Positions 4,922 through 20,673 of a DNA stretch of 21,325 bases are shown in pieces. The stretch is from a virus, in the IMG/VR virus record IMGVR_UViG_3300046804_000362, positions 1 through 21,325 of that record. One strand, 5' to 3'. The position numbers and the translations under genes are program-made. Each line of letters opens with the position of its first letter. The stretch's first letter is position 1. The notes under the pieces were generated by a model. That model was not told the origin of the DNA. It worked only from the letters and a program-made list of their open reading frames with translations, and did not search any database.

Positions 4922-4957
4922 AGTGGCGTTACGCCTCCGTCATTTTCTTGAAGGGTA

Positions 4958-6232
4958 TCATACAGTCAGGTTGTAGAACGTAATAGCCCCGTAACCCGTA
5001 TTTGTAGCAGTCATGGACCTTGCGCCGATCGTGTAAGTGTCGCTGGATGCGAACCCATTACCCGTCAAAGAGGCGGTATAACCCAGCTGCAGTTCCCAGT
5101 TGTATCCGGTCGGGACGATGGCGCTCGACGAGCCCTGATTGGTTCCAGTGGCGTAGGCGACCTGAGTGATGCTGTCACCCGAGGGCTGGGTACCGAAGGC
5201 CGTAGCTGCCGTATCCACGTCAATCTGCCCATTGCAGAGCGTAGAAGCCCACGTCGCGCCCGTCAGGGAGGCATTCTTGACCGCCACAATCTCGAAGTTG
5301 GCGTTGCTGGTAGGCAGGAATGTGATGAGTGCTGGCAACACAATTGCGCCGTAATACCCCGAATTCACGCGAATTGAAGCGATCGGGTAGAACGTATTGG
5401 CCGAGCTGAAGGACACTTGGTTCGGGTTACGCGCCACGAACGGCTGGGAGGTCTGCTCGTACCCACCCTCGGACATGACCGTAGAACAGATCTGTTGCAG
5501 GACCGCAGCGCCAGAGGTCGTGCCCGTGGTGAGGATTTCATACCGCAGGGGGAGGATAGCCGTCTGCATATAGACGGATGTACCTATGTTGGCGTTCTGG
5601 AAGATGTGGGCGGTGCGGAACACGCCATTGATGACGAACCCGCAGATGATGTTGCCGACGCCCAGCCACTCGAAGTTGAGGAACAGAATCTGGGTCTTGG
5701 TCAGGTCCAGCGTCACACCACTCGGCCCGGTCCCATCAAACTTGTCCACATTCCAACTGGACTGCACGACGAAGCGGCTGTTGTCCACCGTGCCGCTGGT
5801 GTAGGACCGCACGACGAACGAAACCTGACTGCCCGCCTGCTCCAGATAAACACCGTTATAGGCGCTATAGTAGCCAACGCGCTGAGTCAGGTTGGTCAGG
5901 GCCGTGTTCATGGAGAAGGTCTGCAGAGTGAGCAGACTCTTGCCCGGTTGATAGGGGAAAACCCTATACGTCTGCGCCACCACAGTAGAACCAGAAGTCG
6001 TCGTGACGTTGAGGTTCACGGAGCTTTTGTTCGTGTTGTAGGAGGTCGTACCACCTGTGGCAGTGGCGTAGCTGAAGGTGCTGTCCGCTGCAAACCGAGC
6101 CTGACTGTCGTAGAGCGTGTATGGGTTCGATACGCGCAGGCGACCGAACGAGTCAACCGTATTCCCACCAAACTGGACGTAGCTGGCGTTGGAAGACGAA
6201 GAACTGATAGGCGGGAATACCGTAATCGTCAT
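4958..6232 (-). CDS. Phage virion structural protein with DSFGRLRVSNP motif, 424 aa
   Basis: A beta-rich protein with almost no charged runs. The N-terminal segment has VDSFGRLRVSNPYTLYDSQ, the hallmark of a widespread phage structural family. The following 350 residues alternate strands and Gly/Asn/Thr turns, with no coiled coil, signal peptide or catalytic motif. Such proteins are usually annotated simply as structural; a tail or appendage role is likely because it follows the nozzle-like protein and two small virion proteins, and precedes the ejection genes. The ATG overlaps the upstream stop (ATGA). A 36-base gap follows the gene, the second largest in the window. Confidence 0.78.
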   Translation of the reverse strand: MTITVFPPISSSSSNASYVQFGGNTVDSFGRLRVSNPYTLYDSQARFAADSTFSYATATGGTTSYNTNKSSVNLNVTTTSGSTVVAQTYRVFPYQPGKSLLTLQTFSMNTALTNLTQRVGYYSAYNGVYLEQAGSQVSFVVRSYTSGTVDNSRFVVQSSWNVDKFDGTGPSGVTLDLTKTQILFLNFEWLGVGNIICGFVINGVFRTAHIFQNANIGTSVYMQTAILPLRYEILTTGTTSGAAVLQQICSTVMSEGGYEQTSQPFVARNPNQVSFSSANTFYPIASIRVNSGYYGAIVLPALITFLPTSNANFEIVAVKNASLTGATWASTLCNGQIDVDTAATAFGTQPSGDSITQVAYATGTNQGSSSAIVPTGYNWELQLGYTASLTGNGFASSDTYTIGARSMTATNTGYGAITFYNLTV

Positions 6233-6603
6233 ACCGCTTCTCCGCCTGAGATGGTGACAGTGCAGCCAGTAGCGCTGGCCTTGACCTGAACCGTGTCACC
6301 AGCGTTCGTGCCAGCCACAGGGCCATTGATGATCTGGGAGCCAGTCCACTGCACCGTGCTGTTGGCCGGGATGCTTGCGTTGTACATCAGGGCATTCGCA
6401 GTTCCTGCCGTACCAACCGTGTTGGTGGAGGTATACGGCACCAGACAGATGCAGACCGTGATGGCACTACCTGTCGTATTGCAGATGTCGATGTCCTTGA
6501 TGTACGCACGGGCGTCCACCGGAGCCGTGTAGACGGTCTTGAAGGAGGTGGTGATTTCCGCCTGCCCAAGCCGCTTGCCGACGATGTTCTGGAAATTGGC
6601 CAT
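6229..6603 (-). CDS. Small beta-rich virion protein, 124 aa
   Basis: Start chosen at the ATG that overlaps the stop of the preceding 63-residue gene (TGATG); a TTG nine bases upstream would add three residues but lacks support. The protein begins MANFQNIVGKRLGQAE, then forms a predicted beta-sandwich: VYTAPVDARAYIKDIDICNT, ITVCICLVP, a Gly/Thr/Ala loop, IPANSTVQWTG, and the closing GDTVQVKASATGCTVTISG. This pattern (TAP..A..I..I.I.N....V......P....) is common in small phage decoration or tail-accessory proteins. Exact role unknown. It is tightly coupled at both ends to structural genes (ATGA with the 424-residue gene). Confidence 0.72.
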   Translation of the reverse strand: MANFQNIVGKRLGQAEITTSFKTVYTAPVDARAYIKDIDICNTTGSAITVCICLVPYTSTNTVGTAGTANALMYNASIPANSTVQWTGSQIINGPVAGTNAGDTVQVKASATGCTVTISGGEAV

Positions 6604-6794
6604 CAGTAGCAACCTGCATCAAGCCAGCTCTGCACCTGAGAGCTATTGGCTGTATCGATCAACTGCTGGGTAGCGTTGTCGATCGAGGTGAAGTACAGAC
6701 GCAGCACGTTGCTCAACTGCTGGTTGTAGTCCAGCGTGTAGGTTGAAGACGGCTGCGGAAGGTTCGGGCCCTTGGTTGTGGCAATGTCAGCCAT
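6603..6794 (-). CDS. Small conserved phage protein, 63 aa
   Basis: A short helical protein: a disordered N-terminus (MADIATTKGPNLPQPSS), then YTLDYNQQLSNVLRLYFTSIDNATQQL-like heptads split around a Asp-Asn pair, and a short tail ending in AGCY. The spacing of Leu/Ile (QQLSNVLRLYFTSID) suggests one amphipathic helix, perhaps an oligomerising helix within the tail. I recognise the DYNQQL...LRLYF pattern from small genes beside nozzle-like genes in uncultured phages, without a known function. Its ATG overlaps the stop of the 878-residue gene (TGATG), and its own stop overlaps the next ATG in the same way, so the three are coupled. Confidence 0.7.
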   Translation of the reverse strand: MADIATTKGPNLPQPSSTYTLDYNQQLSNVLRLYFTSIDNATQQLIDTANSSQVQSWLDAGCY

Positions 6795-9430
6795 CAGCGT
6801 CTCCCGTCAGGGGAAATGTCGAACCGCATGGCACCCATCTGCCACTGGACGCCCAACCCGGTGGACTCGATCCGCATGGCCATCTGGCGTCCACGGACCC
6901 GGGTAAAGACCTCACCAGTGTACTGCTCGACAGGGTAGGTGTACGTCGGAGCAGCTGGCAGGGCAGTGTTTGTCACCGTCATGGTATCCACACCGATGGC
7001 GTAGGCCGTACCAGAGTTCTGCCGGGGCTCGATGGTCAGCGTAACCGAGGGGTTCGTAGCCGTCGAGTTGGTGAACGTCAGGTCAGGTAGGACACGCCAG
7101 ACATACGAGAAGTTGTGCCCGTCCGCGATAGCCATGTCAGCTGTCTCAATATAGGCACTGATGGGGAGAGGTGACGTAAGCGAGATACTTGCGTCATCCA
7201 GTCCATACTCATGGAACAGAACCTGATTCGGTACGAGGTAGCTAACCGGGGCATAGATGCTATGCGAGGCGGCGGTTGTGCCGTTGGCACCGCGAGTCAG
7301 ACCAGAGAACGTGTTGTTGTTCTGGTCGTTCGGTCCTACCGTGTAAATGATCTGTTCCGAGTCGATAGTGATCGTGCCCGTAGAAGGGTACGAGTTACCG
7401 TTGATGACCGTGATGCTGGGGCTCGTATCCGTAATAGTCTGACTGATGTAGGTCTTCTGAAGACTGAACATGGACAGGGGATAGGTTTCCAGCGGAGTAC
7501 CATTCCAAGCCGTACGGTTGATAGTCCCGTAGTACCACAGGTCATCCAAGTAGTTGTAGATGATGTAGCTGTCGTTGACCTGACTAGTAGCAGATGGGTA
7601 GAACCACCAGATCTCGTTGAAGCCTTCGTTGTACCCGGCAATAATTTGATTCAGCTGGCTCTTGTTGAGATTGCTGTAGACAAAGCGCCGCAGGGTGCAG
7701 GGGAGGCTCTTCACGCTACCGTCGTAAACGTAGAATCGGTCAACGCCCATGAAGTAGGTAGCGTTGTTGGTCGAGATGGCAGCGTTCGGAGAGATGATCG
7801 AGATGTTGTCCTGCAGCAGGTTGAAGCTGAAGACATACGGAGCGCCGACGTACTGCATCGAGTACATGGCGGAGTCCGACCACACCACGATTTCCTGACG
7901 GGTATTAACCGCCGTGACGAGGTACGAGCCGTTCGACAAGAGCTGCTCGCCAGCCTGATTTTGCTGCTGCGGGACCCACTCATACAGGTTGGACTGATCA
8001 GTCCACCTCACCAGCATGGGATTGAAGGCCGAGGCCGTCAGCAACGTCGGGTCGTAAGAGTTTGCCCCCAGTGCAATGGTGAACTGGTAGGTGCTGGCCG
8101 AGATGATGCGGTTGGTCTGGGTCGGGACCGCGTCTCCAGAGTAGCTGAAGTTCAGTACGTCGCCCGCCGAGAGGGTGACGCCAGCGCTCAACGTGACCGT
8201 GAAGCCATTGTTGTACGCCGTGGTGACCTTCGTACCAGTCGGGATAGACGAGCCACCGGAGCCAGACGAGATAGTTACCGTAGCGCCTTGCGTGATGTAG
8301 TAGTTGTTGTCCACCACAATGCTGGTAACGCCAGTACCGCCAGTTGTTACGACTGCTCTACCCTTGACCTGAGTAGCCGTGTAGGCACTGAGGAGGACAC
8401 CGCGAGAGGAGAAGGTAGGGTCAAACACCCAGTAGTAGATTGAGCCCTGCACCGTCGAGAAGACGAGGTCCTGATTGAAGTTGCACTGAGACCAAAGCCG
8501 CAGCGCCTGAGTGATGGTGCTGGTACCACCACTCTGCCCCCAACCGCCAGTACCAGCGTTGGTAGTCATAGCCACAGGAGCAGCAGGAGTGCCAACCAAT
8601 ACTGCCGAACCACTAACAGTCCACGATAGACCACCACCAGCAGTGATAGTAGTACCAGAAAGAGCCGTGGTGTAATTTACCGGAGTAACCTGCGCACAGC
8701 TGATGGTGTTCGTGGCAGTGATTGTGCCAGTACCAAGTGCCGTAACAGTAAGCGTATTACCCGCAACTGAAGAACCCGAACCTGCCGAGATATAGCCAGT
8801 AAAGCTAGCAACCGACGTGCCACCCCAAGGGCCGTTACCCCAGCCAAGCGCCGAGGATACGACGTTGTTACCCGCGTTGATCTGGTAGGCAATGTATACG
8901 TTTGCGCCACCGCCCGTAGCAGCCGTGGGTATAGTCGGGTAGCAGCTGATAGTGAAGGAGTCACCGTCCGGGGTCGTGATGACCTCGTACTCACCGCTGA
9001 CCGTATAGCCACCTACCGCCGTAGCTCCAGTGATAGTGACAAACGTACCTGCCGAAACGCCGTGCCCAACCGCATTGATGGTGATGAGGCTATTGGTGCC
9101 ATTAGTCACAATCGGATTGCTGAGGGGTCCAGCCGTCGTGCGTAGCGGGGTGATGTCATAGTAGACGTTACCGTACTCGACGTAGTACTTCTGGTTGGTA
9201 CCAAACGCTAGGACAACGTAGCCGTAAGGGCTGTACGAAGACCAGCTGAGCATCGTACGCGCAACGCCAGAGAAGGTATTGTTGTACGAGTAGTTGATCC
9301 ATCCACCGATCTTCTCAACGAAGCCTGAACGGAACCGGATCTTGTCGCAGTTGTAGAAACCCCCCGACACAGCGTAGGAGGTTATCTCTTTGTTGACACC
9401 GGGTTTGAACGGGATCTTCGTTACTGGCAT
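6794..9430 (-). CDS. Large nozzle-like tail protein with inserted beta-modules, 878 aa
   Basis: The N-terminus (PFKPGVNKEITSYAVSGGFY, then IRFRSGFVEKIGGW) is characteristic of a podovirus structural family related in role to P22 gp10 or T7 gp12, the beta-propeller nozzle. The core also shows propeller-like blades: SNLYEWVPQQQNQAGEQLL, IVVWSDSAMYSMQYVG, YFMGVDRFYVYDGSVKSLP, NEIWWFYPS and YNYLDDLWYYG. Four stretches look inserted: residues about 108-180 (NSLITINAVGHGVSAG), 208-290 (a module with GGGLSWTVSGS), 357-430, and 668-728 (GTITIDSEQIIYT, then FSGLTRGANGTTAASH). The last 150 residues are strands ending in MAMRIESTGLGVQWQMGAMR. The nozzle role is an inference from pattern and context. It starts 2 bases after the endolysin stop. 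Confidence 0.78.
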   Translation of the reverse strand: MPVTKIPFKPGVNKEITSYAVSGGFYNCDKIRFRSGFVEKIGGWINYSYNNTFSGVARTMLSWSSYSPYGYVVLAFGTNQKYYVEYGNVYYDITPLRTTAGPLSNPIVTNGTNSLITINAVGHGVSAGTFVTITGATAVGGYTVSGEYEVITTPDGDSFTISCYPTIPTAATGGGANVYIAYQINAGNNVVSSALGWGNGPWGGTSVASFTGYISAGSGSSVAGNTLTVTALGTGTITATNTISCAQVTPVNYTTALSGTTITAGGGLSWTVSGSAVLVGTPAAPVAMTTNAGTGGWGQSGGTSTITQALRLWSQCNFNQDLVFSTVQGSIYYWVFDPTFSSRGVLLSAYTATQVKGRAVVTTGGTGVTSIVVDNNYYITQGATVTISSGSGGSSIPTGTKVTTAYNNGFTVTLSAGVTLSAGDVLNFSYSGDAVPTQTNRIISASTYQFTIALGANSYDPTLLTASAFNPMLVRWTDQSNLYEWVPQQQNQAGEQLLSNGSYLVTAVNTRQEIVVWSDSAMYSMQYVGAPYVFSFNLLQDNISIISPNAAISTNNATYFMGVDRFYVYDGSVKSLPCTLRRFVYSNLNKSQLNQIIAGYNEGFNEIWWFYPSATSQVNDSYIIYNYLDDLWYYGTINRTAWNGTPLETYPLSMFSLQKTYISQTITDTSPSITVINGNSYPSTGTITIDSEQIIYTVGPNDQNNNTFSGLTRGANGTTAASHSIYAPVSYLVPNQVLFHEYGLDDASISLTSPLPISAYIETADMAIADGHNFSYVWRVLPDLTFTNSTATNPSVTLTIEPRQNSGTAYAIGVDTMTVTNTALPAAPTYTYPVEQYTGEVFTRVRGRQMAMRIESTGLGVQWQMGAMRFDISPDGRR
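8561..8809 (-). repeat. Related beta-module inserted in the nozzle-like protein
   Basis: Residues about 208-290 of the 878-residue protein: FTGYISAGSGSSVAGNTLTV followed by a degenerate centre and AGGGLSWTVSGS. The opening resembles FNGYISSGAGLTAAGTTLTV at the start of the giant repeat protein. The middle looks rearranged, so homology is likely but not certain. Confidence 0.55.
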
Positions 9431-9771: not shown

Positions 9772-10295
9772 TTCAGCACCTTATCCAGTTGAGCAGACTT
9801 ATCCTTGCTGCCAATCGAACTACCGAAGTAGTACGAGATGACCTGCGTCGAGATGGCGGTCAAAGCGCCAAGGACGTACACCAAGATGTCCTTGCGGCTG
9901 GATTCCACCGGGGAGTTGTCAAACATCAAGAAGCCAAACAGGATGAACGTGAGAGCCGTGATGAAGAGTGCCAGCACCGGAGTGACAATCTTGTTGATGA
10001 TTGGCGCTTTATCCGAAGTGGCAATATCCGTCTCACGTTTGCGGGCACTGTCGGTGTCCTTGAGGCGTAGGTCAAGCTCCTGAAGATCTAGCTTGTTGTC
10101 TTCGAGCTGGAGCTTCAAAAGTTCTTCCTCATGCTCCATCTCAGCGATCTTGAGCTTGGCATAGTCCTCGCTGGTCATATCAGGCTTGAGTTCAACGCCC
10201 AGCTTCTTCTCGACCCAGTCCTTGCCCTTCGCCGCTACGGCGTTGGCAACAAGGTTGAGACCCTTACCCAGCAATGCAGCGACGATAGGAATCAC
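9768..10295 (-). CDS. Holin, 3-TM gene-transfer-release type, 175 aa
   Basis: Residues 1-20 are a weakly hydrophobic helix (IPIVAALLGKGLNLVANAV). Residues about 42-90 form a charged coiled coil (EMEHEEELLKLQLEDNKLDL). Two clear membrane helices follow, KIVTPVLALFITALTFILFG and DILVYVLGALTAISTQVIS, then the tail YYFGSSIGSKDKS, a signature I associate with the holin family described for gene-transfer-agent release. It would open the inner membrane for the endolysin encoded next. Start: I choose GTG at base 10295, which overlaps the nuclease stop (GTGA) and has GGGAG 9 bases upstream. Starts further upstream (TTG 10304, GTG 10301) lack a placed SD. Confidence 0.88.
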   Translation of the reverse strand: MIPIVAALLGKGLNLVANAVAAKGKDWVEKKLGVELKPDMTSEDYAKLKIAEMEHEEELLKLQLEDNKLDLQELDLRLKDTDSARKRETDIATSDKAPIINKIVTPVLALFITALTFILFGFLMFDNSPVESSRKDILVYVLGALTAISTQVISYYFGSSIGSKDKSAQLDKVLK

Positions 10296-10648
10296 GGACA
10301 CCAACTCCCACGGGCCCCGCCCGTGTACTGCCTAGCTAGTCCATCAGCAACCAGAATGCCAGCGACTTCCTGACCGTTGGCGACAACAATGGCATCGACG
10401 CGCCCAGCAAACTTGTCCGGGGTGATGTCGGATATGACAATCGAACCCGTCAGTAGCTCTGCCAAACGCGCCTTGGCCTTCAATGCAAGGGCCTTCTCAG
10501 CCGCGCACTTCCCCTTCAGCTCAGGGGTATCGATACCCTTGAGGCGTACAGCCGTGACAATCTCCACCCCATCCCACACCGGGACTCGGGCTTTGAACGT
10601 ATCTCCATCAGTGACGGAGATGAGCATGGCGAGGAAGGAACCGATCAT
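10292..10648 (-). CDS. Staphylococcal-nuclease-like (SNase) nuclease, 118 aa
   Basis: The complete SNase core is visible: VTDGDTFKARV (first Asp ligand pair), VRLKGIDTPELKGKCAAE (the Arg35-Asp40-Glu43 set, by chance with the same numbering as the mature Staphylococcus enzyme), and AGRVDAIV, whose Arg83 matches catalytic Arg87. The end (GQEVAGILVADGLARQY) is the conserved third helix region. The reaction would be calcium-dependent, unspecific cleavage of DNA or RNA. The N-terminus is short and mildly hydrophobic (MIGSFLAMLIS), not a convincing signal peptide. The gene sits directly before the holin and overlaps it, so it is expressed with lysis functions. A role in degrading host DNA or lowering lysate viscosity is an inference. 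Confidence 0.88.
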   Translation of the reverse strand: MIGSFLAMLISVTDGDTFKARVPVWDGVEIVTAVRLKGIDTPELKGKCAAEKALALKAKARLAELLTGSIVISDITPDKFAGRVDAIVVANGQEVAGILVADGLARQYTGGARGSWCP

Positions 10649-11460: not shown

Positions 11461-12002
11461 TAGCCTATCACCACAGTTTTGACCGCGCCTCCGGTCGTGC
11501 CAAAGAGAGTCGCAGCGGGAGCTGCGAGTGTAAACATGTACTGAGTACACGGGCGACTAGTGCCACTACCAATAAGGCTACCCGATCTGTACTGCGGTGT
11601 AGCCCGCACGGTAGACCCACCAGAGACCGTTGTACCATCAACGACCAACGTAGTGGCGAAGTTGGGAGCCGTCACAGTAGTATCTCCGTCAGTCAGAATG
11701 ACGTAGTAGCTAGCGTTGCCAGATGACCCACCAGCAGAATAAATGCCAAGGACAGTTACACCAAGCACGGGAGCCGTAGCTGACCCTACTGGGCATTGAG
11801 TGTTGTCAATGAACTGGGTATTGAATACTGGACCACTACCCGGCGTATACCCAACAATAGACCAGCCATAAGCCCAGTTAGTTTGAGTACCGCCACCAGT
11901 TGCATTAGTACCTAGCCCAACAATGACAGTGAACGTACCACCGCTAGATGGGTTGGCAACGCCTGCTGCACTAGCCGCCAACAGACTAAGCGCCCCACTC
12001 AT
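11460..12002 (-). CDS. Beta-rich protein of the tail-fibre group, 180 aa
   Basis: Start chosen at the ATG overlapping the stop of the fibre-like gene (TGATG); ten extra upstream codons read VHQRYGAHL and look like shadow. The protein begins MSGALSLLAASAAGVANP, a mildly hydrophobic stretch that could pass for a weak signal peptide but is more likely a fibre-assembly segment, since no secretion context exists. The rest is Gly/Thr/Ser/Val-rich strands (FTVIVGLGTNATGGG, SYYVILTDGDTTVTAP, TQYMFTLAAPAATL) with two Cys residues. I do not recognise a family. It lies between a fibre-like protein and a glycine-rich adhesin-like protein, so a tail-tip or fibre-accessory role is reasonable. Confidence 0.65.
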   Translation of the reverse strand: MSGALSLLAASAAGVANPSSGGTFTVIVGLGTNATGGGTQTNWAYGWSIVGYTPGSGPVFNTQFIDNTQCPVGSATAPVLGVTVLGIYSAGGSSGNASYYVILTDGDTTVTAPNFATTLVVDGTTVSGGSTVRATPQYRSGSLIGSGTSRPCTQYMFTLAAPAATLFGTTGGAVKTVVIG

Positions 12003-13813
12003 CAGATGAGCCCCGTACCGCTGATGAACCACCGGGTAGAGGTTACCTTGGTGGCAGTAGCAAACGCATAGCGTGGCAGGATGCGAGTACCCGTGGTCGG
12101 CGTAGACGTACCCGCCCAGACCATGGTGTCCGTGGTGATGGCGATACCCGCCGTGACTGCCGAGCTAGCGTCATTGAAGAACGTCAGCACCGTGCCGATC
12201 GGGTATGGCACAGCAGTGTTTGCCGGGATGGTCAGGACCGGGCCTGCAGTGAGAGCACCAGATACTGCACCAGAATTATTGACACTCATGGTCAGCGTAA
12301 ATGTGGGAGTCGTACCCGTCACGTTGGTGATGACCGCGTTGGTACCGACGCCCGTACCAGTCAATGGCTGGCCGATAGTAAACGTACCCGTAATCGTGCC
12401 CGAGGTCGTGATGGTATTGGTGCTGATAGTGCCAGAGGAGCCAGAAGCCGTCGCGCCACTACCACCCGTGTAGTAGATGTGCTTGCCAGAGTCCGAGAAG
12501 ATAGCAGTGTAGTTCGTAGAGACAGAAGTCTGCGGGACTTCGAGGAACCCAGTGTTGTAGTTGGTTCCGGTAGCGTCAGCGATCCTATGGGAATGCAGAC
12601 CAGCAATGCCGTTTACCGTCTGGGTAGCACCCTGAGTAATAATCGTACTGTTATTGCTATACGGGCCATAGAACGACATCGTCGTAGAAGCCACAGTCTG
12701 GCTGATATTGACCGTCCAAGATGTACCACTACCACCAGTAATATAGGTACCTTGTGCAACACCCGTACCCGTAACCAACTGACCAGCAGCGACAGCAGTA
12801 TTGGTAGCACCAAGCGTCAGTCCTGTACCGGAGATAGTGCAGCTAGTCTGGGTCGTCACCGTAGTGGGGGCAACGTAGTTCCATACGCCGCTACCCGTCA
12901 CCGTAGCGCGTTGTACCGTGTTGGTAGCAAAGCCAAGCGTGTTGGTGCTCGGCAGATAGATGCCGTTGGCAGGGATGGTTGTGCCGTTGACCGTCAGGGT
13001 GGTCGCAGTCAGCGGGCCAGTGAAGTACCAAGCCGCCGTTGCAATGTCCATCCACGTCAGCATCGGAGTGCCAGTGACGGCTATCGGACCAGTAACAGCC
13101 TGACTGATATTGACGGTGTAGGGGCTAGCCGTACCTGCCGTGATGACCGTACCGTCAGCAACGCCCGTACCCGTGATGTACTGCCCGACAGCGAACGTAC
13201 CCGTGACCGTACCGCCAACCGTGAGCGACGTACCCGAGATGCTGCAGGAAGACCCAGTAGCTACCGTAGCCGTGCTCATCACGGCAAACGGGGTACCCGA
13301 CGAGCCAAGCGTCAGCTTGAGAACGTCAGTGTCGATGACTCCGGTATTGGTGATACCAGTCGTTGTGATGGCCGAGGTGAACGCTGTTTGCGAGATGAAG
13401 TCGATAGCATCGACGACGCTAGAGCCGTCGCAGAACAACACCATGCGCTTGCCAGCAGGGACAGTGATGCCGGGGCCCGAAGGCACTGCGCCAGTACCCG
13501 GGCGGATCGTTACCGACCCAGCAGATACGGTAGTGTTGTTGTAAATGAAGTAGAGCTTGACGTTGGTCGGGACAACCAAGGTACCACCACCAGCATTGTA
13601 GAGGCGGAGGTACATATTTCGGGCGTTGGCAGGAGCACCGGGCGACATCGACCCAAGCGCGTCCGTACCACCAGTACAGGATATAGAGGCATAGCCGCTG
13701 ATGGCCTGTTCAAACAGATCGAAATTCGTGTTGGTGGTATTACCCCATGTACCAGCTTGGTCGCCAGTACCGATTTTCTGAATCTGCAAGTTTGTAGTGT
13801 ATGTACTAGCCAT
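12002..13813 (-). CDS. Tail-fibre-like protein with three beta-modules, 603 aa
   Basis: The N-terminus STYTTNLQIQKIGTGDQAGT, followed by WGNTTNTNFDLFEQAISGY, is a very common phage motif that starts fibre or appendage proteins and probably anchors them to the particle. Residues about 60-170 form a beta domain with VTIRPGTGAVPSGPGITVPA. Three copies of a roughly 60-70-residue module follow (about 188-248, 323-383, 452-522), each with a SISGT/TISGTxLT start, a GQxxTGTGV centre and a TVNISQ-type end. An HSH triplet (407-409) recalls iron-binding HxH motifs of other fibres, but one copy is weak evidence. The C-terminus is strands ending WFISGTGLI. The SD (AAAGGTG) overlaps the stop of the giant repeat gene. 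Receptor binding is inferred. Confidence 0.75.
   Translation of the reverse strand: MASTYTTNLQIQKIGTGDQAGTWGNTTNTNFDLFEQAISGYASISCTGGTDALGSMSPGAPANARNMYLRLYNAGGGTLVVPTNVKLYFIYNNTTVSAGSVTIRPGTGAVPSGPGITVPAGKRMVLFCDGSSVVDAIDFISQTAFTSAITTTGITNTGVIDTDVLKLTLGSSGTPFAVMSTATVATGSSCSISGTSLTVGGTVTGTFAVGQYITGTGVADGTVITAGTASPYTVNISQAVTGPIAVTGTPMLTWMDIATAAWYFTGPLTATTLTVNGTTIPANGIYLPSTNTLGFATNTVQRATVTGSGVWNYVAPTTVTTQTSCTISGTGLTLGATNTAVAAGQLVTGTGVAQGTYITGGSGTSWTVNISQTVASTTMSFYGPYSNNSTIITQGATQTVNGIAGLHSHRIADATGTNYNTGFLEVPQTSVSTNYTAIFSDSGKHIYYTGGSGATASGSSGTISTNTITTSGTITGTFTIGQPLTGTGVGTNAVITNVTGTTPTFTLTMSVNNSGAVSGALTAGPVLTIPANTAVPYPIGTVLTFFNDASSAVTAGIAITTDTMVWAGTSTPTTGTRILPRYAFATATKVTSTRWFISGTGLI
12248..12460 (-). 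repeat. Beta-module copy 3 in the fibre-like protein
   Basis: The most divergent copy of the GT-rich beta-module (residues about 452-522): TISTNTITTSGTITGTFTIG, then QPLTGTGVGTNAVITNVTG, then TFTLTMSV. It keeps the GxFxxGQ-xTGTGV core but lacks the GGSGTSWTV loop of copy 2. Confidence 0.6.
12665..12847 (-). repeat. Beta-module copy 2 in the fibre-like protein
   Basis: Residues about 323-383. Contains TISGTGLTLG, GQLVTGTGVAQGTYI and TGGSGTSWTVNISQTV. It is closest to the module opening the 1,080-residue protein: the ten residues ITGGSGTSWT occur in both, and the DNA matches at 22 of 23 bases over 12711-12733 and 16884-16906. Confidence 0.75.
13070..13252 (-). repeat. Beta-module copy 1 in the fibre-like protein
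   Basis: Residues about 188-248. Contains SISGTSLTVG, GQYITGTGVADGTVI and YTVNISQAV. It has the same strand order as copies 2 and 3 and as the N-terminus of the giant repeat protein. Confidence 0.7.
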
Positions 13814-13822
13814 TGAGCACCT

Positions 13823-16800
13823 TTATGTCCATCCGGGGTCTTGGGAGTCGTCTACTGGAGTCCACGGAGCCCCCTGAGATTCGTCAACAGAAGTCCAGCC
13901 TGCGGACTGTGTATCGTTTACATCCGTCCATCCGGGGTTCTGAGAATTGCCGACAGAGGCCCAGTTTGATGTCTGAGTATCGTCAATCGCAACCCATCCG
14001 GATACCTGCGAATTGCTGACCGACGCCCAAGCCGTGGTCTCGGATACATCGACGGACACCCAGTTGGATGTCTGCGAATCAACGACATCTGCCCAAGACG
14101 GGTTCTGAGAGCCGCTGATCGAGGTCCAGTTGGGATTCTGCGAGTCTGGGATGTCCGTCCAGTCAGGAGTCTGACCGTCATCGACCGGATTCCAAAGCTC
14201 GACAATTTCAACTGTGACTTGCCCGATTGTACCAAAACCGGAGACGCCTGTGACATATACCGAAATGGCGTTCGGTATCCGATTGGTCAGGTCGAACTGC
14301 TGCGCCGCAATACGGGTTACCGGGTTCGGCCAGTCGGTCTGACGGAACGGATTCAGCGAAACCTGCCGGATCGTCGTATTCGGTATCAGGTACTGCTGAG
14401 CCGAGACACGGATGACCGGGTTCTGCCAGTCGTACTGGTTGAACGGCAGGACGACAACAGGCGGAGCCACCAACCGCAGGAGGGTATTCGGCACCTGCTC
14501 CGGATGCGCGAACCGCTTGGGTGGCGGAGTCGGCCAGTCAGTCTGGAAGAACGGAGCCGACAGGTTCAGTTGACGGAGGTTGTCCTCCATCGACTGGGAC
14601 GGGGCCTTCTTGGGTACGGGGTTCGGCCAGTTGGTCTGCTGGAACGGGAACCCTGCGAGCGGGGGCGGGACCTGAAGAAGGGTGTTGTTCCCTATCAGCT
14701 CCTGACGAGCCGCAATGCGAGTGACGGGGTTCTGCCAATCCGTCTGAGAGAACGGCTTGATAGACAGGAGCCCAGCAATCGCGGTGTTCTGGAGGATCTC
14801 CTGACGTACAGCAATGCGGGTAACCGGGTTCTGCCAGTCACTCTGGAAGAACGGAGCCGCCAAATTCAACTGACGTAGGCTGTCCTCCCACGTCGGGGTC
14901 GGGGGTTTCTTGAGAGTCGGGTTCGGCCAGTCCGTCTGATGGAACGGGAATCCTGCGACGGGCGGGGGAGCCTGCAGGAGAGTGTTGTTCCCGAGGATTT
15001 CCTGACGAGCCGCAATGCGGGTGACCGGGTTCTGCCAGTCCGTCTGAGAGAACGGCTTGATAGACAGGAGCCTATCAATCGCAGTGTTCTCAAGGATTTC
15101 CTGACGCGCCGCAATGCGGGTGACCGGGTTCTGCCAGTCAGACTGCTTGAACGGGTCAGGGACAACCAGCTGCCGGAGCTCATCGTCCCACGTCGGGGTC
15201 GGGGGCTTCTTGAGCGTCGGGTTCGGCCAGTCCTTCGGACCAAACGTCCACGCCGACTTCTGGTTCAGCAGGTTGTTCTGGACTACATCAGGCTGTGGGA
15301 ACCTACGAGTAGTCGGGTTCGGCCAGTCCTCCTGACCAAACGGGAACCCTGCAACAGGTGGGGGAGCCTGAAGCAGCGTATTGTTCTGGACGACATCAGG
15401 CTGCGGGAACCGCTTGGGCGGAGGCGTGAGCCAATCAGTCTGCTTGAACGGATCAGGGACAACTATCTGGCGAAGCTCGTCGTCCCACGTCGGGGTCGGA
15501 GGCTTCTTGAGGGCAGGGTTGGTCCAGTCATGTACGCGGAACGGGAAAGCACCGGGAGGCGGTGCGATCTGGTAGAGCGTCGTGTTCGGGGCGACAACAG
15601 GCTGAGCATGTTTGTACGCTGGGGGCGTGACCCAGTCGGACTGGAAGAACGGCGGAGGCGGAGCCACCTGACGAAGTACAGTGTTCTGTACGACATCAGG
15701 CTGGGCGTACCGCTTGGGTGGAGGCGTGGGCCAGTCAGTCTGAGCAAATGGTTGGACAGAGAGCAAGCGACCAATGCTGGTGTTTTCCACCACATCGGGC
15801 TGCGGGAACTTGCGGGTGACCGGGTTCTGCCAGTCAGACTGCTTGAACGGGTCAGGGATGACCAGCTGCCGTAGCTCGTCATCCCACGTCGGGGTCGGGG
15901 GCTTCTTGAGCGTCGGGTTCGGCCAGTCCTTCGGACCAAACGCCCACGCCGACTTCTGGTTCAGCAGGTTGTTCTGGACTACATCAGGCTGTGGGAACCT
16001 GCGGGTAGTCGGGTTCGGCCAGTCCTCCTGACCAAACGTCCACGCCGACTTCTGGTTCAGCAGGTTGTTCTGGACTACATCAGGCTGAGCGTACCGCTTA
16101 GGTGGCGGGGTGGGCCAATCCTCCTGACCAAACGGGAACCCTGCAACAGGCGGGGGAGCCTGAAGCAGCGTATTGTTCTGGACGACATCAGGCTGCGGGA
16201 ACCGCTTGGGCGGAGGCGTGACCCACTCATCCTGCTGGAATGGGTCTGGGATGACCAGCTGCCGTAGCTCATCGTCCCACGTCGGGGTCGGAGGCTTCTT
16301 GAGGGTCGGGTTCGGCCAGTCCTTGTTATGGAAGGGCCATGCCGACTTCTGGTTCAGCAGGTTGTTCTGGACTACATCTGGTTGGGCGTACCGCTTGGGT
16401 GGCGGAGTCGGCCAGTCATCCTGAGCAAATGTAGGAACAGATACCTGATTCAACAGGTTGTTCTGAACTACATCGGGCTGGGGGAACCTGCGGGTAGTCG
16501 GGTTCGGCCAGTCCTCCTGCACCAGAGGAGCAGCAGATAGTAGCCGCGTGTTGACTGATACTTGGTCAGTCTGGACGTTCGCCTTGCGGACAGCCGGGTT
16601 TGAAAGATCGTCAGGTACGATCGGCGGGTTAGACGATACGAGCAGGCCGAGCGCAAGAACAGACCCCGTGAACGTGTGTATCCACGACGGGGGCTTACGA
16701 GGTATAGGATTGGGCCAATCAGTTTGCCGAGTAGGCTCTTTGATGGCTAGCTGACGAAGCTCATCATCCCAAGGCTGCGAAGGCGGCTTCTTGGGTACCG

Positions 16801-17065
16801 GATTAGGGAAGTCGTTCGTTCTGAACGGGACTTCGCCAGTCATTGCGATGCCAGCAGTGGCACCTACAGACTGGGATACGCTAACCGTCCACGATGTACC
16901 ACTACCCCCTGTGATGCGGGTAGTAGCATTGACGCCAACGCCTTTTACGTTCTGCCCAATGGCAATCGTGCCATCGGTAACAGACAAAACGGTGAGGGTT
17001 GTACCAGCGGCAGTTAGTCCAGCGCCGCTCGAAATGTAACCATTAAACCGAGCATTAATGGTCAC
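13823..17065 (-). CDS. Giant Trp/Pro repeat protein, probably a virion appendage, 1,080 aa
   Basis: Starts at GTG with GAGGG six bases upstream. Domain order: residues 8-75 a beta-module shared with the fibre-like protein; 81-925 about 26 imperfect repeats of 31, 32, 33 or 36 residues, each opening with DWPNP, DWPTP or DWQNP and closing near PF; 926-964 a linker with YVTGVSGFGTIGQVTVE; 965-1080 eleven 11-residue repeats with an invariant Trp, the last one cut short. Unit classes include KKPPTPTWDDELRQL, KRFPQPDVVQNNTLLQ and TRIAARQEIL. There are no Cys, signal peptide or enzyme motifs. The protein is Pro/Gln/Asn-rich and probably extended. It lies just before the tail-fibre gene, so I infer a fibre, spike or fibre-linker, but no function is established. 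The SD of the next gene overlaps its stop. Confidence 0.8.
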   Translation of the reverse strand: MTINARFNGYISSGAGLTAAGTTLTVLSVTDGTIAIGQNVKGVGVNATTRITGGSGTSWTVSVSQSVGATAGIAMTGEVPFRTNDFPNPVPKKPPSQPWDDELRQLAIKEPTRQTDWPNPIPRKPPSWIHTFTGSVLALGLLVSSNPPIVPDDLSNPAVRKANVQTDQVSVNTRLLSAAPLVQEDWPNPTTRRFPQPDVVQNNLLNQVSVPTFAQDDWPTPPPKRYAQPDVVQNNLLNQKSAWPFHNKDWPNPTLKKPPTPTWDDELRQLVIPDPFQQDEWVTPPPKRFPQPDVVQNNTLLQAPPPVAGFPFGQEDWPTPPPKRYAQPDVVQNNLLNQKSAWTFGQEDWPNPTTRRFPQPDVVQNNLLNQKSAWAFGPKDWPNPTLKKPPTPTWDDELRQLVIPDPFKQSDWQNPVTRKFPQPDVVENTSIGRLLSVQPFAQTDWPTPPPKRYAQPDVVQNTVLRQVAPPPPFFQSDWVTPPAYKHAQPVVAPNTTLYQIAPPPGAFPFRVHDWTNPALKKPPTPTWDDELRQIVVPDPFKQTDWLTPPPKRFPQPDVVQNNTLLQAPPPVAGFPFGQEDWPNPTTRRFPQPDVVQNNLLNQKSAWTFGPKDWPNPTLKKPPTPTWDDELRQLVVPDPFKQSDWQNPVTRIAARQEILENTAIDRLLSIKPFSQTDWQNPVTRIAARQEILGNNTLLQAPPPVAGFPFHQTDWPNPTLKKPPTPTWEDSLRQLNLAAPFFQSDWQNPVTRIAVRQEILQNTAIAGLLSIKPFSQTDWQNPVTRIAARQELIGNNTLLQVPPPLAGFPFQQTNWPNPVPKKAPSQSMEDNLRQLNLSAPFFQTDWPTPPPKRFAHPEQVPNTLLRLVAPPVVVLPFNQYDWQNPVIRVSAQQYLIPNTTIRQVSLNPFRQTDWPNPVTRIAAQQFDLTNRIPNAISVYVTGVSGFGTIGQVTVEIVELWNPVDDGQTPDWTDIPDSQNPNWTSISGSQNPSWADVVDSQTSNWVSVDVSETTAWASVSNSQVSGWVAIDDTQTSNWASVGNSQNPGWTDVNDTQSAGWTSVDESQGAPWTPVDDSQDPGWT
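13826..14173 (-). repeat. C-terminal 11-residue Trp repeats
   Basis: Ten and a half units with consensus SQNPxWTSVDD, for example SQNPNWTSISG, SQTSNWVSVDV, TQTSNWASVGN and SQNPGWTDVND, so a Trp codon recurs every 33 bases. The protein ends inside the last unit at GWT. Similar S-Q-x-x-x-W repeats close other phage structural proteins that I remember; no function is known to me. Confidence 0.9.
14546..15145 (-). repeat. Tandem 300-bp super-repeat inside the array
   Basis: Residues 641-740 and 741-840 are two adjacent 100-residue blocks, each made of a 33-, a 36- and a 31-residue unit in the same order (QSDWQNPVTRIA..., QTDWQNPVTRIAARQE..., then ...LRQLNL.APFF). They differ at scattered positions, as expected for an older tandem duplication. 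Confidence 0.85.
15116..15429 (-). repeat. Near-identical repeat block, short version
   Basis: This block matches 15812-16221 almost base for base. Up to about 15336 the offset is 696 bases; after it the offset is 792 bases. The difference, 96 bases, is one 32-residue unit that this copy lacks. Confidence 0.85.
15812..16221 (-). repeat. Near-identical repeat block, long version with one extra unit
   Basis: Partner of 15116-15429. The additional unit is about 16031-16126 (residues 314-345, QEDWPTPPPKRYAQPDVV...). Over the last roughly 100 bases of the block only one mismatch to the short copy was seen by eye. Confidence 0.85.
16841..17044 (-). repeat. N-terminal beta-module of the giant repeat protein
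   Basis: Residues about 8-75: NGYISSGAGLTAAGTTLTVL, GTIAIGQNVKGVGVNATT, then TGGSGTSWTVSVSQSVG. It is the only non-repetitive globular domain at the N-terminus of this protein and is shared with the neighbouring fibre-like protein. Confidence 0.7.
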
Positions 17066-17077
17066 AATAGGCCCTCA

Positions 17078-17102
17078 AGTGGGCTACGTTAAGTAGCCCA
17101 CT
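17078..17102. promoter_or_regulatory. Perfect 10-bp hairpin upstream of the giant repeat gene
   Basis: The arms AGTGGGCTAC and GTAGCCCACT are perfectly complementary around a 5-base loop. It lies in the only gap larger than 40 bases, 14 bases after the stop of the upstream gene and directly before the TTGAGGG that carries the SD of the GTG-started repeat gene. There is no T-run on either side, so it is not a canonical intrinsic terminator. A translational control element, RNA-processing site or weak attenuator are possible readings. Confidence 0.5.
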
Positions 17103-17116
17103 ATCGTTGCATCGTC

Positions 17117-17617
17117 TTAGACGACCTCGTACAGGAAGTGCCCCGAAGTCACAGGAGCCGTCGCGGCAGTGATTGCCGAGATGGAAATCTCGCTGTTCGG
17201 AGCAGTCGCGGTCGCAGCCGTAATGGCTTGGTCAGGCGAAGCAACCCAACGCACGATGCCGCCGTAGGCATTGAACGACAGGTGCAACAGATGCGCCGTA
17301 GCCGAACGCTGTCCATTGGTCGTCGCCTGAGTGAAGCCGATAGGCGCGTTGGCAGCGGCACTACCCATTGCGTCAGTCAGGGTCGTACGAACACCCGTAC
17401 CAGACGGGGTCGAACCGTTGGTCGAGTCACGCGCAACAACGATGGTCGCCGGGGTGGAAGTCGAAGCGGATTCACCACCGATGTAGACTTCAGAAATCTT
17501 CAGCATGGAAGCGGCGTTGCTGCTACCGATGGCGCAGAACACGCTGTTACCGAAGGTGGTGGTGTCAGCCGTAGCCGTCATGGTGAGCGAAGTCCAGCTC
17601 GTCGAATACTTAGCCAT
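17117..17617 (-). CDS. Small beta-rich virion protein, 166 aa
   Basis: Starts MAKYSTSWTSLTMTATADTT with a strong SD (AAGGAG) that overlaps the stop of the zinc-ribbon gene before it. Thr/Ala/Ser-rich strands follow, with two recognisable turns: MLKISEVYIGGESASTSTP then TIVVARDSTNGS, and GIVRWVASPDQAI near the end, closing GHFLYEVV. The order resembles small phage structural proteins of about 150-170 residues that I have seen without assigned function, possibly decoration or appendage proteins. It is the last gene before the hairpin, so it may end a translational unit. Confidence 0.68.
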   Translation of the reverse strand: MAKYSTSWTSLTMTATADTTTFGNSVFCAIGSSNAASMLKISEVYIGGESASTSTPATIVVARDSTNGSTPSGTGVRTTLTDAMGSAAANAPIGFTQATTNGQRSATAHLLHLSFNAYGGIVRWVASPDQAITAATATAPNSEISISAITAATAPVTSGHFLYEVV

Positions 17618-17629
17618 GAAAATGTCTCC

Positions 17630-17971
17630 TTACGGAATAATCAAAGAGGTACCGCGAATAGCGGCGTTGATTTGTTCATCTACAATCTGTGCGTAAGTCT
17701 TGCAGGGGGCACCCTGTTTCTTAAGGAGACCACAGCCATCACAGATATAGCTGTCGCATCCACGGCAATATTCACGCTCTCGGGTACGTTGTGGATTCAT
17801 CACAACAATGTACTGACAATGTGAACAAGTATAAGTCGATGTCTCAAACAGTCCCTTACCAGCCCCAACGGGCATATGAGAGGCTCGGAGCATCTCTTCC
17901 GGAACAGGCATGTATGCCGCCCGGTTGTCAACCATCAAGTAGCCTTCTTTGGAACGCTTACTGTTCGACAT
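17630..17971 (-). CDS. Zinc-ribbon-like phage protein, 113 aa
   Basis: Seven Cys: Cys49/Cys52 (CSHC), Cys69/Cys72 (CRGC), Cys77/Cys80 (CDGC) and Cys90. The first two pairs, 17 residues apart, make a zinc ribbon; the third pair with Cys90 could bind a second ion. The N-terminal third is basic and polar (SNSKRSKEGYLMVDNRAAYM). The C-terminus is a short helix (YAQIVDEQINAAIRG). Comparable zinc-ribbon proteins appear within virion gene strings of uncultured phages; whether they are virion parts, assembly factors or nucleic-acid binders is unknown. The start has AAGAGG close upstream and lies 8 bases after the previous stop. Confidence 0.72.
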   Translation of the reverse strand: MSNSKRSKEGYLMVDNRAAYMPVPEEMLRASHMPVGAGKGLFETSTYTCSHCQYIVVMNPQRTREREYCRGCDSYICDGCGLLKKQGAPCKTYAQIVDEQINAAIRGTSLIIP

Positions 17972-17979
17972 AAAGCCTC

Positions 17980-18444
17980 TTACTGGATTTGTACGATCGC
18001 TGCCCCCGACCCTGCGGTCGGGAATACCACCGTAAATGTACCAGTCGTCACGGTCTTTGTGCCACCGAAATTGAGTACTGCTACCGACTTATTACCGTTG
18101 CTGCTGTTATAGATCAGGGCCCCGTCAGCACTGAAGGCGGCACTAGTCCAAGCAACATTTGCGAAATTGATGTATGCGGTCGTGGTAGGGATACCACTAC
18201 TCGTTGGCGTCTGACTGATAGTCAGCGTTTTGCCACCTGCAGTGTACCCGGTCCCCGAAATTTCTCCGGTGGTCGTGTACGCGGTGGTCGTAGCATCCAG
18301 AGTCGCCCCACCCGCAACGGAGTAGAGGGCGATCTTGAACACATCCTGCCCAGTGATGGTCCGAGCAGCTGTGCTGAAATTCATGTTACCACTCAAGACA
18401 TCCGTCTTGAAAGAGGTCGTCATGCATTGGGTGATTCCGGTCAT
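17980..18444 (-). CDS. Small beta-rich structural protein, 154 aa
   Basis: Contains TTSFKTDVLSGNMNFSTA, then FKIALYSVAGGATLDATTTA and YTTTGEISGTGYTAGGKTL, a conserved series in a phage structural family that I recognise from adaptor-neighbouring genes, without a named function. The end (ALIYNSSNGNKSVAVLNFGG, FTVVFPTAG) forms closing strands. I keep the first ATG because it overlaps the stop of the preceding gene (ATGA) and has AAGG five bases upstream; an ATG seven codons later would match the usual start of family members. Likely part of the head-tail region or a decoration protein, from gene order only. Confidence 0.7.
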   Translation of the reverse strand: MTGITQCMTTSFKTDVLSGNMNFSTAARTITGQDVFKIALYSVAGGATLDATTTAYTTTGEISGTGYTAGGKTLTISQTPTSSGIPTTTAYINFANVAWTSAAFSADGALIYNSSNGNKSVAVLNFGGTKTVTTGTFTVVFPTAGSGAAIVQIQ

Positions 18445-19118
18445 TGTACCTTAACCCGCACTTGGCCAGACCTGTAAGCGTCCTGACGATCCTTGCCATC
18501 ACCCAGCTGCTTGAGCAGGATCATGCCTTCGTCGTACATCTTATTGTACCGATCCGCGAGGTCATTTTCACCCTTCAGGTACAGATAGCCTTCCCGCACG
18601 GCACCATACAGCAGGACCTCCCCGAAGTTGTTCCCCAGCCACGAAGTACCAGCGGACACGATGGAGGTCGGGTAGCCGAAGTAGTGAAGCTCCACCGCGT
18701 ACGAAACGTCAGGCGTCGGCCCCAGAATCAGGGTCGTGGAGTCGAAATCGGCGTAGTGCTGCGGAGTGCCTTGGTACGTCGGGTCCGGGTAGGTCTCCCG
18801 GATGAAGTTCACATCCTTGTCGATGAGGAACTTCTGGTCCGTCGCCCCTAACGTATTCTCAGGGTTTATCACCGCTACCGAGAATATAGACAGCCAGTCG
18901 GTCGGCAGGGTCAGGTACTTGTTCCCTGCGGTCATCGTACCAGTCACGTTCTTGCGGATAGCAGGAAGCTGAACGGAGTTGTAAATCCGCTCTTCCGCAA
19001 GCTGTACGAAGTTCGGAATCTGCGCCACAAACGACGTTTCGGTCGTAGCACAGTAGTCCTGAACCATCGTGTACAGATTGTTCGCCGCCGTCGAGGTCGT
19101 GCTGTAGATGACCTGCAT
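18441..19118 (-). CDS. Second adaptor-fold head-tail protein, 225 aa
   Basis: N-terminal helices (TAANNLYTMVQDYCATTETS, FVQLAEERIYNSVQLPAIRK) are followed by the strand pair NVTGTMTAGNKYLTLPTDWL, a loop, DSTTLILGPTPDVSYAVELH and a C-terminal helical bundle with GAVREGYLYLKGENDLADRY. This order, with AGxxYxTLPxD and LxLxPxP in the middle, is that of podovirus adaptor proteins (P22 gp4, T7 gp11 or SU10-type adaptor). It would form a ring below the portal. The gene 827 bases upstream has the same layout, so there may be two adaptor-like layers, or one adaptor and one closure protein. The SD is AAGGA. Confidence 0.75.
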   Translation of the reverse strand: MQVIYSTTSTAANNLYTMVQDYCATTETSFVAQIPNFVQLAEERIYNSVQLPAIRKNVTGTMTAGNKYLTLPTDWLSIFSVAVINPENTLGATDQKFLIDKDVNFIRETYPDPTYQGTPQHYADFDSTTLILGPTPDVSYAVELHYFGYPTSIVSAGTSWLGNNFGEVLLYGAVREGYLYLKGENDLADRYNKMYDEGMILLKQLGDGKDRQDAYRSGQVRVKVQ

Positions 19119-19121
19119 GGG

Positions 19122-19424
19122 TTAGTCCTTCGAGCTGACCTGCTTCCGACCGCTGGTCTTCATAGGCGTGTAGTCGATGTCATCGACAAAGAACTGACGC
19201 CCACGCTCTGCGGCACCGTAGCCGCGCATGTCCATACGCTGCTTCTTCTTGCCATAGGGCTCAATCCAACGACCGCGAGACTTAGTACCCGTCAGGTTCA
19301 TCTCGTCATCGGGGTATCCACCGCCTCGGCCCGCACGGGGGTTCGGCTTGGGCTGGGTGTACTTTCCGATCGGGTTCGGGTCACCCGCATCGAAATAGTC
19401 GAAATCCTTCCACTTGTTAGTCAT
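19122..19424 (-). CDS. Small basic Gly/Asp-rich phage protein, 100 aa
   Basis: The ATG shares one base with the stop of the 42-residue gene (TAATG). A hydrophilic, probably disordered protein: DFDYFDAGDPNPIGKYTQPK, PRAGRGGGYPDDEMN, RGRWIEPYGKKKQRMDMRGYG, then AAERGRQFFVDDIDYTPMKT. There are no hydrophobic segments, Cys or known domain. It sits between the zinc-ribbon/basic-peptide pair and the second adaptor-like gene. Because of its charge and position it may be a small virion or head-maturation protein; I do not recognise a function. Confidence 0.68.
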   Translation of the reverse strand: MTNKWKDFDYFDAGDPNPIGKYTQPKPNPRAGRGGGYPDDEMNLTGTKSRGRWIEPYGKKKQRMDMRGYGAAERGRQFFVDDIDYTPMKTSGRKQVSSKD

Positions 19425-19552
19425 TACCGACCCCTTGCGCTTCCGCGCTGATTGGCAGCACGGGACATATTACGTCCCATCTTCTTGCGGTCCATCGAAG
19501 TCGGACCACCAGCCTTCATGCCCTTCTTGCCACCAGAACATCCCTTAGCCAT
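19424..19552 (-). CDS. 42-residue basic peptide with GMKAGG motif
   Basis: Begins MAKGCSGGKKGMKAGGPTSM and continues DRKKMGRNMSRAANQRGSAR to GR. Its SD (AGGAG) overlaps the stop of the zinc-ribbon gene and its own stop overlaps the next ATG. About a quarter of the residues are Lys or Arg. The motif GMKAGG also occurs in the 579-residue protein, and GMKRGG in the partial protein at the right edge. Peptides of this style are frequent in the structural region of uncultured phages, of unknown role; DNA binding in the capsid is one possibility. Confidence 0.75.
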   Translation of the reverse strand: MAKGCSGGKKGMKAGGPTSMDRKKMGRNMSRAANQRGSARGR

Positions 19553-19562
19553 TTCTACTCTC

Positions 19563-19940
19563 CTAAACCGTTACTGTAACCGTACCAACGCTGCCGATGC
19601 CCGCAAGGTCATTCTGTAGACCATAGGATTCAGTATTGTTGAACCCTACGGGGTTCCAACCCCATTGCGTAACACGGCTACCACCATCACCGCCACTCGC
19701 ACCCGTTGGGGTGTAGTAGCTCGTATCCGGGCGCGGGTCCCGCACTGCCTGCGGGTCGTTGACCGGGTACATCCCCAGCTGCAACTGCGGATGGTCGGGG
19801 TCCCAGCACATCTGGCAAACCTTGATGTTGGTGTTTTTGGTCTTGATGACCAACACCTTCAGCTCCGTCAGTTTGTACCGGAACCCACATCGATCACACT
19901 CCGCAATCGCAAATTTGCCAGATGCAAACCGACTGGCCAT
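19563..19940 (-). CDS. Zinc-ribbon-like phage protein, 125 aa
   Basis: Two CxxC knuckles: Cys15/Cys18 in AECDRCGFRYK and Cys42/Cys45 in VCQMCWDPDHPQ. The pattern CDRCGFxYKLxxL(x)nCxxCWDxxHPQ is widespread among phage proteins next to adaptor genes, with no proven function. The second half is Gly/Pro/Asn-rich (DPRPDTSYYTPTG, WGWNPVGFNNTES) and ends GIGSVGTVTVTV, a short strand repeat reminiscent of the linker before the Trp repeats of the giant protein. The gene starts four bases after the adaptor stop, with GAGGT upstream. Confidence 0.75.
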   Translation of the reverse strand: MASRFASGKFAIAECDRCGFRYKLTELKVLVIKTKNTNIKVCQMCWDPDHPQLQLGMYPVNDPQAVRDPRPDTSYYTPTGASGGDGGSRVTQWGWNPVGFNNTESYGLQNDLAGIGSVGTVTVTV

Positions 19941-19944
19941 CAGA

Positions 19945-20673
19945 TTACCTCAAGAAGGACTGCCGTGGCACAAAACGCACAGGAGCCTTCTCCCGATCCT
20001 CATCCGCAGCTAGCTGAAATGCCTCGTCGTAAACCTGCTTCAGGACAGGCATACGCTCCATGGCCCCCGGAATCTTGAACGAGAGCTGGTAAGCCAGCCC
20101 TGCGACCATAGCCGGGAGAAAGCGGAACGGCACGTCCTGAGTGTTGTACCCATTACCCACATCGTACATCCGACGCAGTCGGGTGTAGTGGAAGGTATAG
20201 CTGGACCCAGTCTCAGGTACAGGCCAGATCGTAATCTTGGGGGACTGTACCGTCAGGTCTGCATTGGTCTCGCCCGACAAGCGCTGAATCCAAACCTGAA
20301 TCGGTCGGCCAGTAGCGTTCTTGTTCGGGATGGACTCATAGGTAGACGAGGAGATCCGGCTGATATTGATATCCAGCTGGTTAGAACCTGACCCGGTGCG
20401 GATAACGTGGTCTAGCAAGTCAACTGTGTCTAATGGAAGGGTGTAAGTTGATGTACCAGCAACCAGCGTTATCTGCCCGGTGTCCAGTGTCCACAAGTTG
20501 ATCCCACGGTTCGCCCACTCCATGAACAGGAGATTGAGCGACCGCTTGGCGGTACGCATGTCGTAGCCGCTACGGGATTCAGCACCACAGCGTTCAAAAG
20601 CCTCTTCGACCGTCGTTACGAGGTCGAGGTTGAACGTGTTGGTGTTCGTTGTGGTTTGCGTAGGAGTGGGCAT
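19945..20673 (-). CDS. Head-tail adaptor-like protein (P22 gp4/T7 gp11 type role), 242 aa
   Basis: After a Thr/Asn-rich N-terminus, residues 18-60 are helices with VEEAFERCGAESRSGYDMRT and LLFMEWANRGINLW. The strand pair ITLVAGTSTYTLPLDTVDLL, then RPIQVWIQRLSG, ITIWPVPETGSSYTFHYTRL and a helical C-terminus (FLPAMVAGLAYQLSFKIPGA, VYDEAFQLAADEDREKAP) complete the usual adaptor layout. Such proteins bind the portal and connect it to the nozzle, keeping packaged DNA in. The order adaptor, accessory genes, nozzle supports this. Its start shares one base with the previous stop (TAATG). The family call is good; the closest relative cannot be decided by reading. Confidence 0.82.
   Translation of the reverse strand: MPTPTQTTTNTNTFNLDLVTTVEEAFERCGAESRSGYDMRTAKRSLNLLFMEWANRGINLWTLDTGQITLVAGTSTYTLPLDTVDLLDHVIRTGSGSNQLDINISRISSSTYESIPNKNATGRPIQVWIQRLSGETNADLTVQSPKITIWPVPETGSSYTFHYTRLRRMYDVGNGYNTQDVPFRFLPAMVAGLAYQLSFKIPGAMERMPVLKQVYDEAFQLAADEDREKAPVRFVPRQSFLR

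Follow-up and report, generated by a model that had tools for sequence, protein, structure and literature searches.

A phage fragment carries a gene for a giant protein that, judged by its sequence, is a fusion of two repeat families found separately elsewhere: long units built around a WPNP motif, and 11-residue tryptophan units (Trp 11-mers). The WPNP unit, the two genes linked to it (g16 and g17) and their spread across phage types appear to be new. Our leading interpretation, which we regard as evenly poised between right and wrong, is that the repeat protein is a long, extended, multivalent virion accessory at the head-neck or adsorption region of a Pam1/SU10-type podovirus. This interpretation starts from the anatomy of the protein, a conserved cassette of g17, g16 and the repeat gene, synteny, unit gain and loss, cassette divergence and purifying selection. 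From these we infer a virion location, an extended state, multivalent binding and a role at the host surface.

Results

The window, by which we mean the whole stretch of DNA analysed, is an entire IMG/VR record: a linear phage fragment of 21,325 bases whose predicted genes lie on the minus strand (Table 1). The repeat gene starts with GTG, 6 nt downstream of a Shine-Dalgarno-like GAGGG. The N-terminal module of its product (residues 1-84) recurs in two further proteins of the same phage (matches at 12680-12847, 13067-13267 and 8564-8809), and other N-termini stand in its place in relatives.

Table 1. Positions of the repeat gene, its parts and its neighbours in the window
Feature	Position	Strand	Basis or remark
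Tail-fibre-like gene (phrog_31104)	12002..13813	-	Downstream of the repeat gene in related podoviruses too
Repeat protein P0001, 1080 aa	13823..17065	-	ORF translation; homologues of 869-1371 aa in L005, L006 and L028
Eleven 11-residue Trp units, aa 959-1080	13826..14191	-	Family common to relatives without WPNP units
Junction, aa 934-958, VTGVSGFGTIGQ	14192..14266	-	Strands predicted at aa 935-942 and 949-955
26 DWPNP-type unit openings, aa 85 to ~933	14267..16813	-	25 whole units and a truncated last one
N-terminal module, aa 1-84, TLTVLSVTDGTIAIGQ...	16814..17065	-	Sequence matches within the same phage
RNA hairpin, 10 bp perfect, from g16 stop to repeat-gene start	17078..17102	-	z -4.2
g16, 166 aa, predicted jelly roll	17117..17617	-	Linkage to WPNP proteins
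g17, 113 aa, Cys-rich CxHC...CxxC...CxxC	17630..17971	-	Conserved in the cassette
Upstream neck block: g18 (phrog_644), g19, g22 (SU10_adaptor)	17980..20673	-	Family matches

A preliminary description of this DNA had counted about 26 long units opening with DW(P/Q)(N/T)P, followed by eleven 11-residue tryptophan units, and both counts held. There are 26 openings of the looser form [DEN][WFL]x[NT]P, 19 of them strict, far above the maxima of 5 loose and 1 strict reached when the protein was shuffled 5000 times. The units are 31, 32, 33, 36 and once 37 residues long, and they fall into three subtypes, partly ordered as a super-repeat of 300 nt (about 100 aa). Values of dS (0.66-0.97) and dN/dS (0.24-0.32) between units mark them as ancient copies that purifying selection has preserved. 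The C-terminus consists of eleven exact 11-mers, running from NPVDDGQTPDW to TPVDDSQDPGW, nine of which match [ST]QxxxW strictly (shuffle maximum 5). The junction between the two arrays, whose two-strand segment reads VTGVSGFGTIGQVTVEI, is almost invariant among close homologues. Overall the protein is 17% Pro and has a net charge near zero.

We modelled residues 712-1080 with AlphaFold from 27 aligned rows, leaving out-of-register alignments aside. The mean pLDDT of 46 can stem from disorder, from the shallowness of the alignment, or from a fold adopted only with a partner or in an oligomer. At this low confidence the seven modelled units contain essentially no helix or strand; the junction forms two strands, the only ones predicted, and the 11-mers are undefined. 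The model fits an extended or partner-dependent chain, and the charge-hydropathy value of the protein lies almost at the boundary between order and disorder. The WPNP unit is close in length to PPR and TAL repeats (near 31-36 residues), but we reject a two-helix repeat of that type, as the preliminary description had done, because the units are Pro-rich, lack predicted helices (a low-confidence result) and have no Pfam match.

The preliminary description knew no named domain for the long unit, and our searches agree. Neither the units nor g16 or g17 correspond to a family in Pfam, PHROGs or NCBIfam; sequence searches of the PDB, some of them with profiles, found no relative; and Rfam gave no match. 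With the repeat protein, g16, g17 and distant homologues as queries, tblastn produced 0 matches in 50,697 GenBank phage records. A literature search for the motif found no description, its single match being a paper on the metagenome-assembled phage DSL-LC04. The C-terminus showed some likeness to siphophage tape measures, which we put down to composition bias (about 20% matches, E 0.03 or worse).

The whole protein as query found a single homologue, L005, which has the same plan over 1077 residues, its reading frame running off the end of the contig. When the C-terminus and the units served as queries, the relatives fell into three groups. The close group (a) contains L006 and L028, which have the N-terminal module, WPNP units, hairpin and 11-mers; L005, with a different N-terminus; and the partial L007, L025, L026, L030 and L031. 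Group (b), found among L008-L024, has the same C-terminus with a middle made of VTGVxATG repeats or IIETASAIDLPS repeats. The distant group (c) comprises the WPNP proteins L032-L036, which are without 11-mers, and its contigs share with the window only the cassette genes and nothing further. WPNP units and Trp 11-mers thus each occur without the other in related loci, so that the window protein joins two families, and this distribution supports the earlier statement that they are unrelated. A side product of the scans is IMGVR_UViG_3300032236_000245 (L007, L046), a 62.7-kb contig with part of a WPNP gene at each end; it therefore probably represents a relative that is complete and circular, and it would serve well as a reference genome.

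Across IMG/VR contigs, 313 distinct units from 35 proteins define a superfamily core, P-F-x-Q-[TS]-D-W-P-N-P-x-x-[RK], in which the positions from D to P belonged to the search pattern and the preceding P-F and Q and the following R/K did not. Members, taken as proteins with at least three [W/F/Q..]xNP motifs spaced 28-40 residues apart, have 3-33 motifs each; of 278 spacings, 72% fall at 28-40 and more than half at 31-33. The window protein belongs to them with 26 motifs at spacings of 31-37. In two further members (L082, L094) a segment YLLLENGNRIQLENxSGDITLEG is inserted between two Trp 11-mers of the C-terminus. The L035, L050 and L098 proteins begin with a similar motif, and the segment may be a mobile structural-protein module.

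The repeat gene occupies the tail-fibre slot in its phage group. The window order is adaptor g22, g21, g20, g19, g18, g17, g16, the repeat gene, tail-fibre-like g14 and so on to nozzle-like g8. The same slot, before a g14-type fibre gene, is filled elsewhere by VTGVxATG-repeat/SQTPNW proteins (L008-L013, L019-L024, and WJZ48131 of DSL-LC04). These share with the window protein a C-terminal GxxG hairpin motif and, after it, WxPVxDSQ 11-mers; they differ in having short beta-type repeats, no WPNP units and only 2-3 Trp 11-mers, and neither g16 nor g17 was detected at their loci. The window protein has the hairpin motif, the WxxVxxSQ 11-mers and the adjacent g14-type fibre gene that mark the slot; it lacks VTGVxATG middle repeats, having a single GxxG hairpin and a middle of WPNP units. 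Nor does it carry an S74 C-terminal chaperone: Pfam gave no match, and its C-terminus is made of Trp 11-mers. VTGV-type relatives have fibre-like genes of 918-1099 aa between g18 and the slot, with C-termini that look S74-like by eye. Large fibre-like genes with S74-like ends lie in this slot region at 2976-5960 (L009) and 4038-7334 (L024), and the L013 slot region contains, at 7140-7727, a 196-aa gene of a different kind, sulfotransferase-like by eye.

The two small genes accompany the WPNP proteins closely. All 12 contigs found with WPNP queries that have visible upstream sequence, two of which carry the same virus, have g17 and g16 directly upstream of the repeat gene, as does the window. 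A scan with g16 gave 105 candidates. We retained 80 loci, and removal of near-identical loci and of everything found with WPNP or full-length queries left 43. In 36 of these g17 is adjacent. A protein with at least three motifs lies downstream of g16 in 14 of the 33 loci with enough sequence, a lower bound since in several of the 19 negatives (L060, L066, L102) one or two motifs can be made out by eye, and upstream in none of 38. No g16 relative was found in bacterial genomes, where g17 had a single partial match, in a MAG contig. The AlphaFold model of g16 is all-beta (pLDDT 70). Its matches in the PDB are weak (best E 0.02), most of them to jelly-roll capsid or TNF proteins; the best viral matches are uncharacterised phage proteins (E 2e-5). 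The hairpin that follows g16 has no T-run in the window. In relatives it is strong and kept in position with a changed sequence (z -1.7 to -5.1). It may set the level of g16 expression, either by stabilising the mRNA or by attenuation.

The cassette diverges abruptly between close relatives. Between the window and L025, nucleotide identity is 93-98% over most of g18-g22; g17 and g16 retain 62-76% and the units about 57-64%, and a short stretch where the repeat gene begins reaches 81%. This step suggests exchange of a block, and part of the drop could be fast divergence instead. The units themselves come and go: the proteins of two metagenome contigs, L082 and L085, show 99.6% identity, yet one has precisely one 31-aa unit more than the other, in frame, and L094 has the same ends with a different string of units. 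The length of the protein is not fixed, which argues against a ruler role, and we reject a tape measure for tail length on the gain or loss of one unit at 99.6% identity and on the range of 3-33 motifs across relatives.

Discussion

How might such a protein work? If it is a multivalent virion accessory, the spaced PFxQTDWPNP motifs would provide many equivalent binding sites, held about 31-36 residues apart by variable linkers. The junction and the Trp 11-mers would most likely serve attachment or a shared slot function, because they are common to the slot proteins of related phages. The repeat middle, swapped, lengthened and shortened between strains, would suit a region whose partner, for example the host surface, itself changes. 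That phages have repeat-containing, exchangeable surface proteins is a general idea already known.

The cassette is found in podovirus-, myovirus- and siphovirus-like contigs, and what its locations have in common is that they fall in the head/neck part of the structural block. It lies near the portal in L033, near the terminase in L035, L066 and L081 (L035 and L066 by eye) and near an adaptor-like protein in L120; in L070 a capsid-E protein is upstream, and in L093 a tail terminator and a sheath gene are downstream. In some myo- and siphovirus-like contigs it adjoins capsid and head-completion genes, not fibres. The preliminary description had suggested, as possibilities, an extended, Trp-studded rod linking fibre to tail or a surface-binding comb; the linked genes g16 and g17 and the divergence of this block had escaped it. 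The extended chain is compatible with the structure prediction, but the link from fibre to tail is too narrow, because relatives adjoin portal, terminase, major capsid, tail terminator and sheath genes.

These same neighbours could suit a different, purely structural role, as a staple: a chain running along the head or neck surface, each motif clamping one capsid or neck subunit, with no host binding. The positions of the L093 and L070 relatives, between major capsid and tail terminator or sheath genes, and of the L033, L035 and L081 relatives, beside portal or terminase, speak for it. A stoichiometric part, however, would hardly vary from 3 to 33 motifs and change in count between near-identical phages, nor would it be expected to diverge as sharply as the cassette does between close relatives. 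We consider a staple unlikely.

A second alternative makes the repeat protein a scaffold for g16. Each WPNP motif would dock one g16 copy or trimer, producing a beaded appendage that is scaffoldin-like in principle. Cellulosome scaffoldins bear many equivalent docking sites on one chain. The WPNP chain likewise has repeated sites and a linked gene for a small partner, an analogy that implies no homology; unlike in scaffoldins, the unit is a short motif rather than a folded domain, and the partner is putative. Several observations favour docking: g16 adjoins the repeat gene across otherwise unrelated phages, it was undetected in same-slot relatives without WPNP units, it is a predicted jelly roll, and the strong hairpin that follows it in most relatives could favour an excess of g16. 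Against this, a mirror-tree test found no co-variation of repeat and g16, unit similarity failing to track g16 similarity (Spearman -0.09, 36 pairs), which weakens the docking model. Moreover, at 19 of 33 loci a clear WPNP protein is missing downstream of g16, which must therefore have another role or partner there. We judge this scaffold distinctly unlikely. Its boldest form is more of a long shot still: the WPNP repeat would be a new, unfolded, array-forming docking chain, and the cassette a mobile three-gene module that assembles about 3 to 33 g16 copies into a strain-tunable, beaded adhesive appendage in phages of different build.

That the protein is not part of the virion at all, but is for instance released at lysis to act on the surface of the host or a competitor, is highly improbable: it has no known domain and we infer its virion location, yet in the lineages covered here its gene is embedded in the structural block and the L035 relative carries a C-terminal Gp77 (fibre-tail adaptor) domain. 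Gp77 (PF23148) is the fibre-tail adaptor of Ralstonia podophage GP4, known here from its Pfam name only. It is fused to the end of the distant L035 WPNP protein (Pfam, E 5e-7), and the next gene encodes another Gp77 (E 5e-10); a second WPNP member has a match below threshold, and the window protein has none in Pfam.

We return, then, to a virion accessory at the head-neck or adsorption region. A repeat family and a gene pair that recur across podo-, myo- and siphovirus-like contigs are absent from the libraries and GenBank phage records searched, at the sensitivity used. If they form an adsorption or surface module, they would add a type of phage appendage that, unlike a trimeric folded fibre, is extended and built on motifs. 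Such an appendage, if real, would have its length and its set of motifs altered by the gain and loss of units.

Elsewhere in the window, at 10292-10648 on the minus strand, a gene whose small product carries a staphylococcal-nuclease-like domain (Pfam SNase, E 6e-8) adjoins a possible holin gene and a candidate M15 peptidase endolysin.
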